The notes under the pieces: model-generated
Told to the model about the DNA's origin: nothing
Database searches by the model: none
What the model saw: only the letters and a program-made list of their open reading frames with translations
Made by a program: the position numbers and the translations under genes
From: Bordetella flabilis
GTDB taxonomy: Bacteria; Pseudomonadota; Gammaproteobacteria; Burkholderiales; Burkholderiaceae_B
Length of the DNA: 64,000 nucleotides
Direction: 5' to 3'
NCBI RefSeq assembly: GCF_001676725.1
Contig: NZ_CP016172.1
Span: 3,162,001 to 3,226,000, forward strand
Shown here: one piece after another, positions 47,451 through 61,526 of the stretch
Position numbering within the stretch: the first letter of the stretch is position 1
How the letters are laid out: every line of letters starts with the position of its first letter

Positions 47451-48401
47451 ATGAACACACCTTTTCCTCTTCTGGAGGACCTTCGCCTGTTCTGCCTGGT
47501 CGTACGCAAACGCAGCTTCGTCGCGTCCGCCACGGAACTGGGCGTATCCCCGGCCTATGTCAGCAAGCGCATCGCCATTCTCGAAAATGCGCTCAATGCC
47601 AAACTGCTGCACCGGACGACCCGGCGCATCAATGTGACGGACCATGGCGAAACCGTCTTCCAATGGACCCAGCGCATCCTGGAAGACGTGGAGGAGATGA
47701 CTGAAGCGGTCTCCACTTCCCGGACCACCCCGCGCGGGATTCTGAGCATTTGCACGAGCACGGGATTCGGCCGCAATCACGTCGCGCCGGCGGTATCCGA
47801 ACTGGCTACGCGCTACCCTTCATTACAGGTCCAGCTGCACTTTCTGGACCGTCCCGTCGATATGCTGGAAGAAGGCTTCGACCTGGACATTCGCGTGGGC
47901 GTGGTTCACGAACCCACCCTCATCGCCCGGCGTATCGCCTCCAATCACCGTATCCTTTGCGCGGCACCGGCCTACCTGGCGCAACATCCGGCGCCGGAGC
48001 GTCCCGCCGATCTGGCGCAACACCACTGCATCCCCATACGGGAACGCGACCAGGCATTCGGACTGTGGCGGCTGACCGGCCCGAATGGCACCGAAACCGT
48101 CAAGGTCAGCGGGCCGCTATCGGTGAACAACGGCGAAACAGCCCATCGCTGGGCCATCGACGGCCACGGGATTGTGCTGCGCTCTGAATGGGATGTCCGC
48201 GCCAGCCTGCAGACCGGCACCCTGGCGAGGGTGCTGCCGGACTACCACCAGGAAGCCCATGTCTGGGCCGTCTATCCTTCCCGCCTGAGCCACACCGCGA
48301 AGGTACGCGCCTGCGTGGAGCTGCTGGAAGAACGCCTGCGGTGCACCGCCACGCTCAGGGAAGAATCCAGCCTCCATCAACCACCAGTGTCTGTCCCGTG
48401 A
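47451..48401 (+). CDS. LysR-family transcriptional regulator
   Basis: A 316-residue LysR protein: DNA-binding domain at 1-65 (LEDLRLFCLVVRKRSF; PAYVSKRIAILE) and effector domain from about 95. ATG 47451 was chosen because the LysR fold starts there; an earlier in-frame ATG at 47403 adds unconserved residues. It diverges from the tartrate dehydrogenase gene across 209 bp. Its last 47 bp overlap the 3' end of the convergent SDR gene at 48355, so the transcripts are antisense at their ends. Confidence 0.92.
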   Translation: MNTPFPLLEDLRLFCLVVRKRSFVASATELGVSPAYVSKRIAILENALNAKLLHRTTRRINVTDHGETVFQWTQRILEDVEEMTEAVSTSRTTPRGILSICTSTGFGRNHVAPAVSELATRYPSLQVQLHFLDRPVDMLEEGFDLDIRVGVVHEPTLIARRIASNHRILCAAPAYLAQHPAPERPADLAQHHCIPIRERDQAFGLWRLTGPNGTETVKVSGPLSVNNGETAHRWAIDGHGIVLRSEWDVRASLQTGTLARVLPDYHQEAHVWAVYPSRLSHTAKVRACVELLEERLRCTATLREESSLHQPPVSVP

Positions 48402-49113
48402 TATAGCTGGCCGCGTCGCTGGCCAGGAACACAAACGCCGCGGCCTGGTCTTCCGGCACGCCAAGCCGCCCCAGCGGAATCCGGCCGACCGCCTCCGCGT
48501 GCGCTGCGGGGTCGGAAAGCAGCCTGCTGTTCATGGGTGTCAGGGTACGACCCGGCGCCACGCAATTGACGCGTACGCCATGGCGGCCCCACTCGAGCGC
48601 GGCCGTCTTCACGAACTGCGAGATACCCGCCTTGGTCGCGGCATAGACCGCGCGGAACTCCGCTCCGTTGAACGTAAGCTGGGAGCCGGTGTGCAGCACC
48701 ACCCCGCTGCCTGTCGCGATCATTCGCGTGCCCACCAGCCTGGTCAACGCGATCGCGCCTTCCAGGTTGATCGACACCAGGCGATGCAGATCGTGCCAGG
48801 TCAGCTCGGCCAGTGGCTCGTAGATCAACACGCCCGCGTTATTGACCAGGACATCCACGTTGCCCACGGTCGCAGCCAATGCCTCGACCGAAGCGATGTC
48901 GGCCTGGTCATATTGAACGGCATGCAGGTCCCGCGGACGCTCCGCCACGACGGCCGACAACCCCGCCGCATCGCGGTCGGCGACGTGCACGGTGGCGCCC
49001 AGGTCCGCGAACAACAAGGCGGCTGCCCGCCCGATGCCGCTCGCGGCGCCCGTAACGCATACGCGCTTGCCGGAGAAATCGAAATTCTTGAGAAACGAGG
49101 GTTGGGATGACAT
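48355..49113 (-). CDS. SDR-family oxidoreductase
   Basis: A 252-residue classical SDR with TGAASGIG, NNAGVL, Ser in TGSQLT, YAATK and C-terminal GQTLVVDGGW. The acidic VADRD after strand 2 suggests NAD. It is the last gene of the nine-gene TRAP operon, 14 bp after the epimerase gene. It probably oxidises a hydroxy acid or sugar derivative taken up by the transporters. Confidence 0.9.
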   Translation of the reverse strand: MSSQPSFLKNFDFSGKRVCVTGAASGIGRAAALLFADLGATVHVADRDAAGLSAVVAERPRDLHAVQYDQADIASVEALAATVGNVDVLVNNAGVLIYEPLAELTWHDLHRLVSINLEGAIALTRLVGTRMIATGSGVVLHTGSQLTFNGAEFRAVYAATKAGISQFVKTAALEWGRHGVRVNCVAPGRTLTPMNSRLLSDPAAHAEAVGRIPLGRLGVPEDQAAAFVFLASDAASYITGQTLVVDGGWILP

Positions 49114-49127
49114 AAGACGGGGAATTC

Positions 49128-59768: not shown

Positions 59769-60782
59769 ATGACAAAAAAAGTCCTATTACTCGCCACCGG
59801 CGGCACGATCGCATCGCGCTACGATGCCGACCACGACGACGTCCGCGCCGTCGGACACGCGGATGACCTCACCCGCTGGGTACGGAGCCATACCCAGGGC
59901 ATCGATGTCGAGGCCAACGACATCATGACGGTCAACAGCTACCAGATGACGCTTGCCGACCTTTTCCGCATGGCTTGCGCGATCCGCCAGGCAGTGGACC
60001 GCGAAGACGTGGCGGGCGTCGTGGTCACGCATGGCACGGACACCATGGAGGAGTCCGTGTTCATGGCCGACCTTCTGGTCGACACCGAGAAGCCGATCGT
60101 TTTCACGGGCGCGCAACGCAGCGCCGATGATCCACACGCCGATGGTCCGGCGAACCTGCTTGACGCCATCCGGGTCGCCAGCACGCCGGCTGCCCGCGGT
60201 CATGGCGCACTGGTGGCATTCGGACAGGAGATCCACGCGGCGCGATGGGTCTCGAAAACCCATACATCCGCGCTGCGCGCCTTCCAATCGCCCGGCAAAG
60301 GCCCACTGGGTATCGTGGATGGAGAACGGGTGGTTCTCCACTATCCTCTGGACCGGCACGCGAAAATGGCATGCGAGGCGATCGAACCCCGGGTGGACCT
60401 CCTTCGCCTGTACGTAGGGGCGGATGCCCGTTTCATCGATTGCGCGGTCGCCACCGGAGCCCGCGCCCTTGTGCTGGAGGCGTTCGGCCGCGGCAATGCC
60501 ACTGCGGCCGTACTTGAAGGCATACAGCGCGCGGTGGCGCGCGACATTCCGGTGATTGTCACCTCGCGCTGTCCACAAGGGTTGGTGGAACCCGTCTACG
60601 GCGGAAGTGGCGGAGCGGCCCTGGCCCGCGCCGGTGCCCTGTTTGCGCCAGGAATCAGCGGCATCAAGGCGCGCATTCTGCTGTCCGCGCTGCTCGGCCG
60701 TTCGCCGTCGCCCGAGACGTTACGGACGGGCCTCTTGTCATTTCTGGAGCAAGCGTTCAACATGCGCTCACCCAGTGAATAG
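59769..60782 (+). CDS. L-asparaginase-family amidohydrolase
   Basis: A 337-residue asparaginase/glutaminase-fold enzyme. LLATGGTIAS supplies the nucleophilic Thr, VVTHGTDTMEES the second Thr-Asp pair, and TGAQRSADDPHADGPANL the adjacent loop. There is no signal peptide, so it is cytoplasmic. It hydrolyses a side-chain-type amide; in this operon a half-amide such as succinamate or maleamate is a plausible substrate beside asparagine. It starts 31 bp after cobW. Confidence 0.9.
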   Translation: MTKKVLLLATGGTIASRYDADHDDVRAVGHADDLTRWVRSHTQGIDVEANDIMTVNSYQMTLADLFRMACAIRQAVDREDVAGVVVTHGTDTMEESVFMADLLVDTEKPIVFTGAQRSADDPHADGPANLLDAIRVASTPAARGHGALVAFGQEIHAARWVSKTHTSALRAFQSPGKGPLGIVDGERVVLHYPLDRHAKMACEAIEPRVDLLRLYVGADARFIDCAVATGARALVLEAFGRGNATAAVLEGIQRAVARDIPVIVTSRCPQGLVEPVYGGSGGAALARAGALFAPGISGIKARILLSALLGRSPSPETLRTGLLSFLEQAFNMRSPSE

Positions 60783-60797
60783 AGCAGAAAAGCGCCC

Positions 60798-61526
60798 ATG
60801 CTGAAAGCGCCCATGCCGAAACTTTCCACGCCGGAAATGATCGTCCGCACCATTCAGAAAATGATTCAACGCGGTCGATTCCAACCGGGCCAGAAGCTTC
60901 CCGGCCAACGCGAGCTTGCCGAACACCTGAATGTCAGCCGCGCCTCGCTGCGAGAGGCGCTTTCGACCCTGGAAGCCCTGGATCTGGTGCGCACGCGCGC
61001 CGGCCAGGGAACCTATATCCATGATCGAAAGCTTGCCAAGCCCCTGCCCATGCATGATTGGAAGTTTGCCGATCAGTATGCGCTGTCGGAGGTCTATGAA
61101 TTCCGTTATTTCACGGAAACGGCGGCGGCCCGTCTGGCCGCCGTGCAGATAGAAGATCGTGAAATCGCAACACTGCGGGAATATCACGCGAAACTCGCGC
61201 GAGCGCTGCAGGAAGAAGATGTGATGGTCAGCACCAGCCACGATTACGAATTCCATCGGTACATCATGCTCTGCTCGCGCAATCGACTCTTTGTCGACCT
61301 TTACGATCGCTTCCAGAAGATCTTTCACGAAACCCAGATGCTGCCCTATGCGAGGCACGAACGCCTGAGCGAAGTGATCGAGGAACACGGCCGGATAGTG
61401 GAAGCCATTGCGAGGCGCGACGGAGACGCCGCCGCCGATTGCCTGGGCCAGCACCTGCTCAACGCGACCGAAAGGATCGGCATTCCGATGACGCGGGTTG
61501 GCCCCGGCGCCGACCGCAAACCCTGA
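60798..61526 (+). CDS. GntR-family (FCD) transcriptional regulator
   Basis: A 242-residue FadR-like regulator: HTH with PGQKLPGQRELAEHLNVSRASLREALSTLE and a wing TRAGQGTYI, then an FCD domain with EFRYFTETAAARLAA, HDYEFHRYIM and EEHGRIVEAI carrying the Asp/His metal-ligand pattern. ATG 60798 or 60813 could start it. It is the last gene of the operon, 15 bp after the asparaginase gene. Two TGGTCNGACCA-like dyads before the operon are likely targets. Confidence 0.92.
   Translation: MLKAPMPKLSTPEMIVRTIQKMIQRGRFQPGQKLPGQRELAEHLNVSRASLREALSTLEALDLVRTRAGQGTYIHDRKLAKPLPMHDWKFADQYALSEVYEFRYFTETAAARLAAVQIEDREIATLREYHAKLARALQEEDVMVSTSHDYEFHRYIMLCSRNRLFVDLYDRFQKIFHETQMLPYARHERLSEVIEEHGRIVEAIARRDGDAAADCLGQHLLNATERIGIPMTRVGPGADRKP

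Follow-up and report, generated by a model that had tools for sequence, protein, structure and literature searches.

A candidate divergon for cyclic imide catabolism with a putative metal-maturation pair in Bordetella flabilis

Introduction

Do two divergent operons of Bordetella flabilis encode one catabolic pathway, and for what kind of compound? They lie in a stretch of 64,000 nucleotides of contig NZ_CP016172.1 (positions 3,162,001 to 3,226,000), which is called the window here and whose own numbering is used throughout. An earlier note on the window had read them as a set in which an imide is opened to a half-amide, the half-amide is hydrolyzed to a dicarboxylate, and this acid is isomerized or decarboxylated and then oxidized.

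The cluster is real, partly conserved and catabolic, and that reading is right in outline but probably wrong on the isomerization and incomplete. All the genes that had been listed are present with clear family matches. Overlooked were a gene for a small cysteine protein, a GAF domain on the product of the gene at 52966, and two genes that adjoin the cluster just beyond the range then considered (46156-48401), one for a tartrate dehydrogenase/decarboxylase or D-malate dehydrogenase (TTC) and one for a LysR regulator. With moderate confidence, we take the locus to be a divergon that catabolizes small cyclic imides, or the lactamols that precede them, probably as sources of carbon and nitrogen, leading from imide to half-amide to hydroxydicarboxylate and its oxidative decarboxylation. 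The chemistry is known and the gene arrangement is new.

Results

The gene at 57557..58441 (+) encodes a predicted cyclic imide hydrolase (imidase) of the HP0310/HxnM family with the polysaccharide-deacetylase fold. Its product matches Helicobacter pylori HP0310 (3qbu) over the full length, with 479 bits, 98% coverage and residues 2-290 of 294 aligned. The metal-site and catalytic residues are kept as Asp11, Asp13, His85, His89, Trp126, Trp127 and His247, where His85 and His89 were matched to what we take to be the other two histidine ligands of HP0310. The residues named for HP0310 itself are Asp12, Asp14, His247 and Trp127/128 (PMC3084791). The family is reported to include the Pseudomonas putida imidase AAY98498 and the fungal HxnM. 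HxnM serves as the imidase in nicotinate breakdown, ahead of the amide hydrolase HxnN, and a cyclic imide builds up in vivo when hxnM is deleted (PMC9304392). Thus the imide reading of this gene is supported by family membership and conserved residues, and its assignment as a cyclic imide hydrolase of the HP0310/HxnM/AAY98498 family largely holds as a prediction.

Two partners accompany the imidase gene almost everywhere. One is the overlooked protein of 94 residues (58449..58733, +), which sits between the imidase and a CobW gene, carries an MCxxCG motif ('CGLCG') and belongs to an unnamed family recognized by homologue alignment. A Pfam search with it gave no match, its GC content by codon position is 0.72/0.56/0.81, and Cys2 and Cys5 are invariant in the 20 sequences of its family alignment (A2). 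The other is a CobW/COG0523 GTPase and probable metallochaperone (58730..59737, +; PF02492 and PF07683), which has the P-loop (GPLGSGKST), the CxCC motif (CICC) and the CobW_C domain of COG0523.

Imidase homologues of at least 60% identity, in fact 63-77%, were collected at 33 loci outside the window after short duplicates and L060, which overlaps L002, had been dropped. Six came from a scan for the AMD-GAF gene described below (L001-L004, L006, L007), one is a second copy in genome G001 (L061), six are chosen plasmid records (L094-L099) and two came from an asparaginase search (L103, L107). The other 18 came from imidase-query draws of 250 family and 398 phylum genomes (L046-L053, L054, L075-L083). 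Genomes G002 and G003 were also within the draws and are counted as L002 and L003, and AMD-GAF is also present in G009, from which L046 comes. A contig end truncates the gene in L054, so 32 loci are evaluable.

Within 6 kb of the imidase, both partners (CobW at E <= 1e-15, MCxxCG at E <= 1e-4) are found at 31 of these 32 loci, the sole exception being Rhizobium L094, and at all 17 evaluable loci that were least selected (L046-L053, L075-L083). The pair is retained even where a transporter and two short-chain dehydrogenase (SDR) genes put it 3.0-3.7 kb from the imidase, as in L075-L079 (Pseudomonas or kin, by eye) and the enterobacterial plasmids L095 and L096, or 5.1-5.5 kb away, as in L006. 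Among the 250 family genomes, from which A2 was built in part, 13 have the MCxxCG protein, and 10 of these 13, but no others, have the imidase. At nine control loci with GAF-less relatives of AMD-GAF, neither imidase, CobW nor MCxxCG protein was found at the cut-offs (0/9).

Several of these loci show further genes. A solute-binding-like protein comes after CobW in L095, L096, L097 and L099, where its annotation is 'extracellular solute-binding' or 'signal peptide prediction', and also, judged by eye, in L080. The imidase cluster of L095 (8586-16376), a plasmid of Klebsiella pneumoniae, has an amidase, a major facilitator superfamily (MFS) carrier, two SDRs, the MCxxCG protein and CobW, and insertion sequence elements flank both sides. 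In L052 (74-7410) the imidase triad stands beside a cupin gene (Pfam) and genes of CoA-transferase and oxygenase-reductase type (by eye), a context that may point to an aromatic imide, for instance phthalimide.

The probable half-amidase is an asparaginase-type amidohydrolase (59769..60782, +), whose fold is confirmed by Pfam (PF00710 and PF17763). It shows TGGTIA, THGTD and a lysine, which we take to be the catalytic motifs of type I/II L-asparaginases, and scores under the NCBIfam asparaginase cut-offs (TIGR00520, 188 of 314 bits; TIGR00519, 165 of 260). A homologue lies 88-146 bp from the imidase at three of the 33 loci, on alphaproteobacterial plasmids of Rhizobium, Skermanella and Bradyrhizobium (L094, L103, L107), and at none of the 17 least selected ones. 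L094 had entered the imidase list before any asparaginase search, and the window and Rhizobium enzymes cluster together in a tree of seven sequences (0.95 support). In Mesorhizobium L104 a homologue stands ahead of a tartrate dehydrogenase that shares 71% identity with the window's TTC, and no imidase is close by.

Elsewhere an amidase-signature enzyme recurs in this place. It is found within 10 kb at 15 of 33 imidase loci (E <= 1e-40), with weaker matches beneath this cut-off in L061 and L094. The window has no such enzyme of the HxnN type above 90 bits in its 64 kb (with the L005 amidase as query) and none at E <= 1e-40 within 10 kb of the imidase. The recurrent plasmid pairs support the half-amide step that had been proposed, and it is plausible from these sequences that the asparaginase-type enzyme acts as the half-amidase, with a recurrent alternative in other genomes.

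The product of 52966..54198 (-), here AMD-GAF, joins a domain with the fold of arylmalonate decarboxylase (AMDase) and maleate isomerase to a C-terminal GAF domain. Asn25, Tyr142, Asn172 and Cys202 match the functional PSSN, Tyr, Asn and second Cys residues of maleate isomerase. The first Cys of that enzyme forms a succinyl-cysteine (title of 2xed), and in a profile alignment to 2xec it falls on Gly89. Glycine fills this column in all 46 rows of the alignment, one of which is the window itself and ten of which repeat genes already included. All rows share PSSN, W[N,S,D]GT[S,A] and PY, and Cys202 and Asn172 are kept in every row except L006 (Gly and Ser there; P0188 likewise).

Since the nucleophilic Cys is absent in every row examined, maleate isomerase activity and the isomerization once proposed are unlikely, and decarboxylation, the other option then offered, stays among the likelier chemistries. 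AMDases are described by G74-T75-S76, C188, P14-P15 and G189 (PMC4996985). By motif matching the first two have counterparts here, in G89 T90 S91 and the single catalytic-type C202, and the last two are replaced by PSSN and Thr203. The product scores 50.6 bits against NF052327, whose cut-off is 225. Since the hallmarks of each family are only partly present, we place it in neither. Its residues make a one-cysteine (single-acid) enediolate chemistry, decarboxylation or hydration, likelier than cis-trans isomerization. As a speculation that we think improbable, AMD-GAF would be a maleate-type hydratase that needs no cofactor: the missing nucleophilic Cys would leave space for water, and Cys202 would protonate the enediolate, forming D-malate for the neighboring D-malate dehydrogenase.

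Among the 120 best matches listed, bacterial homologues that bear a name and exceed 54% identity come from Burkholderiales; those from actinobacteria reach 41-43%, and those from Lipomyces-type yeasts about 50%. Every Lipomyces species reportedly has hxnM and hxnN as a divergent pair and none of the other hxn genes (PMC8478523). The presence of both the imidase-amidase pair and an AMD-GAF protein in Lipomyces suggests a cross-kingdom link.

GAF-like domains were also seen apart from this fusion. Three lie in two small genes (L061, 9503-10930) upstream of the second Ramlibacter imidase cluster, the last of them without a Pfam match and 41% identical to the AMD-GAF tail.

How far does the gene set hold together? 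Eight AMD-GAF loci outside the window were examined (L001-L007, L046), and near AMD-GAF they have an imidase in seven, CobW in seven and an amidase-signature enzyme in six, with TTC and LysR in the same six. The first TRAP (tripartite ATP-independent periplasmic) set and both dehydrogenases recur in three (L002, L003, L046), both TRAP sets in two (L003, L046), and an MFS carrier adjoins AMD-GAF in L004, L005 and L007. Castellaniella S9 (L003) and genome G009 (L046) keep most of the set in near-identical order, so the arrangement is not a product of chance. They differ in that the SDR has another place among these genes, the TRAP strand also carries the imidase trio, and an amidase-signature gene replaces the asparaginase and GntR genes. 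Hence much of the set does co-occur in other genomes, one of the points on which the earlier note had let its reading stand or fall, and the asparaginase and GntR genes drop out as fixed members. The recurrence of the enzymes with changing carriers argues for one pathway.

TTC (46156..47277, -; TIGR02089, 561 bits against a cut-off of 470) is divergent from the LysR gene (47403..48401, +), whose product is TtdR/DmlR-like (NF007315, 314 bits, under the cut-off of 398). The TTC family acts on tartrates and D-malate. Therefore the imide probably derives, on this family assignment, from a C4-C5 dicarboxylate that is hydroxylated or can be hydrated, and TTC gives a plausible exit from the pathway.

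The operons are separated by a divergent gap of 436 bp, which holds two operator-like sites of the pattern TGGTCWGACC. They share the 11-base form TGGTCAGACCG, at 57359..57369 (-) and in the opposite orientation at 57505..57515 (+). In the 64 kb, TGGTCAGACC occurs twice, both times in this gap and in opposite orientation, against 0.15 occurrences expected, and at least two occurrences anywhere arose in 3 of 100 shuffles. A looser pattern occurs at chance level. The sites resemble what we take to be FadR/GntR operators, and the last gene of the plus-strand operon encodes a GntR regulator with an FCD domain (60798..61526, +; PF00392 and PF07729).

A 15-base direct repeat of 2.2 copies (60789-60821) covers the start of this gene, so its start codon is uncertain.

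Discussion

From the gene families, conserved residues, recurrent partnerships and operator-like repeats we infer the following route. The TRAP carriers would import the substrate, either the imide or a ring-opened acid. The SDR may oxidize a lactamol to the imide, by analogy with the fungal HxnW. The metal-dependent imidase would open the ring to a half-amide, from which the asparaginase-type enzyme, or an amidase-signature enzyme in many relatives, would free ammonia and the dicarboxylate. This acid, or what AMD-GAF might make from it by one-cysteine enediolate chemistry, would be oxidatively decarboxylated by TTC. CobW and the MCxxCG protein would supply metal to the imidase or mature it, and GntR may control both operons through the two identical sites.

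Several observations weigh against this route. AMD-GAF is rare, being in 3 of 250 family and 1 of 399 order genomes, and none of its eight other loci has either the asparaginase or the window's GntR. L005 has AMD-GAF, TTC and the amidase with no imidase in its 21 kb, and L047-L053 are without AMD-GAF, TTC or amidase at the cut-offs (the contigs of L047 and L048 being about 6 kb). L094 has an amidase-signature match (E 1.7e-22) alongside its asparaginase, and has neither CobW nor MCxxCG protein in 26 kb. Conversely, three genomes carry the MCxxCG protein without a close imidase. In addition, HP0310 is cited as deacetylating peptidoglycan in a crude extract, which mutant experiments support indirectly (PMC3084791), and another study reports its activity on acetylated xylan, chitin and p-nitrophenyl acetate (PMC3688963); these activities weaken a purely imide role.

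On those activities and its PgdA annotation, the 57557 product might be a true peptidoglycan or polysaccharide deacetylase in a cluster for cell-wall or amino-sugar turnover. This is very improbable, as its partners are catabolic (amidase, asparaginase, SDRs, TTC) and no export signal is seen by eye at its N-terminus MKEILCGIGVDVD. HP0310, moreover, is described with a small closed cavity fitting a small molecule, no signal peptide and, in that study, no activity on N-acetylglucosamine, chitotriose or allantoin (PMC3084791), and the HxnM genetics point the same way (PMC9304392). A cyclic amide or ureide, such as a hydantoin or dihydropyrimidine, might be opened instead by this fold, which PuuE allantoinase shares, and the gene run of Skermanella L103 includes one annotated dihydropyrimidinase. 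We find such a ring substrate improbable, since no carbamoyl-cleaving enzyme was recognized among the window's cluster genes and the recurrent partners are amidases, expected to act on half-amides.

The operons might also be two adjacent systems that share a promoter region by chance, one scavenging nitrogen from imides and half-amides (57557-61526) and the other for TRAP-imported dicarboxylates (46156-57120). Such a split would agree with L005 and with the absence of AMD-GAF within 13 kb at 26 of the 33 imidase loci, some on shorter contigs. It has to contend with seven of eight AMD-GAF loci, from several genera, having the imidase within 6.5 kb, in either orientation relative to AMD-GAF and beside different transporters, and with operator-like sites in the shared gap, so we judge it unlikely. 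The single imide pathway remains our preferred reading.

The helper pair is the most novel part of the cluster and the most worth testing. Pairs of a COG0523 metallochaperone and its target are known, such as the nitrile hydratase activator (PMC2770081), so by analogy the most likely role of CobW and the MCxxCG protein is to deliver metal to the imidase or mature it. In the genomes where the MCxxCG protein lacks a close imidase, a distant deacetylase-fold match (26%) stands directly upstream (G097, L101) or other amidohydrolase-type genes are nearby by eye (G116, L100; G145, L102). Together with its near-universal presence beside imidases, this agrees with a pair that matures metal-dependent hydrolases of rings or amides and serves imidases above all. 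More tentatively, the two may be dedicated to assembling the metallocentre of cyclic imide hydrolases throughout Pseudomonadota, and probably that of HP0310 too, which would then be a small-molecule imidase. HP0310 lies, by number, two locus tags from the COG0523 gene HP0312.

The bacterial route from imide through half-amide to dicarboxylate has reportedly been described as biochemistry, in Blastobacter A17p-4 and P. putida YZ-26, whereas our literature search gave no paper on a cluster with the window's accessory genes. A close likeness is the end part of the fungal nicotinate hxn cluster of Aspergillus nidulans, HxnW-HxnM-HxnN, described as a dehydrogenase, a same-family imidase and an amide hydrolase leading to a hydroxydicarboxylate, with transporter genes in both systems (PMC9304392). 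The window differs in the asparaginase-type half-amidase, TRAP carriers, AMD-GAF, TTC, CobW and MCxxCG protein, and pyridine-oxidizing genes were not noted in its cluster. As in the window, an AMDase-fold gene stands beside TRAP genes at reported arylmalonate decarboxylase loci, but the sections of that paper used here mention neither imidase nor TTC, and the AMDase motif is incomplete in our enzyme (PMC4996985). Maleate isomerase shares PSSN, Tyr and Asn with it, but lacks the GAF fusion and has Cys in place of Gly-Thr-Ser. The COG0523 pairs likewise couple a CobW-like GTPase with an enzyme of metal-dependent C-N chemistry; the window adds the MCxxCG protein, and the term 'imid' is absent from the main text of that survey (PMC2770081).

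If the pathway is as proposed, it gives a complete bacterial catabolic context to enzymes that often go under the annotation 'polysaccharide deacetylase' or 'PgdA', and points to the enzyme that a group of COG0523 GTPases probably serves along with a small cysteine protein of no named family. It also flags proteins that one source labels 'maleate isomerase' though they are without that enzyme's nucleophile.

Other features of the window

The minus-strand operon holds the remaining genes. The first TRAP set has the binding protein DctP (56104..57120; PF03480, TIGR00787 above cut-off), the small permease DctQ (55537..56046; PF04290) and the large permease DctM (54260..55540; TIGR00786 above cut-off), the last with homologues of 74-77% in L002, L003 and L046. 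The second has DctQ (52401..52964; PF04290), DctM (51133..52404; TIGR00786 above cut-off) and DctP (50098..51105; PF03480, TIGR00787 above cut-off). The dehydrogenases are an extended SDR of the NAD-dependent epimerase/dehydratase type (EPI, 49128..50060; PF01370) and the SDR (48355..49119; PF13561), with homologues of 67-71% and 66-68%, respectively, in the same three loci.

Gaps are operon-like on both strands, at 7, -4, 31 and 15 bp on the plus strand and from -4 to 61 bp on the minus strand. Third-position GC is of the coding type for most cluster genes, being measured for the SDR and EPI reading frames only with spurious 5′ extensions. Beside GntR, 61576-63970 (-) holds genes of a dimethyl sulfoxide reductase-type molybdoenzyme (anchor subunit, iron-sulfur subunit and the end of the molybdopterin subunit). 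At the other side, just past the 3′ end of an oxidoreductase gene (45086-46069, -), 44920-45043 is a 19-base tandem array of 6.5 copies with 99% match.

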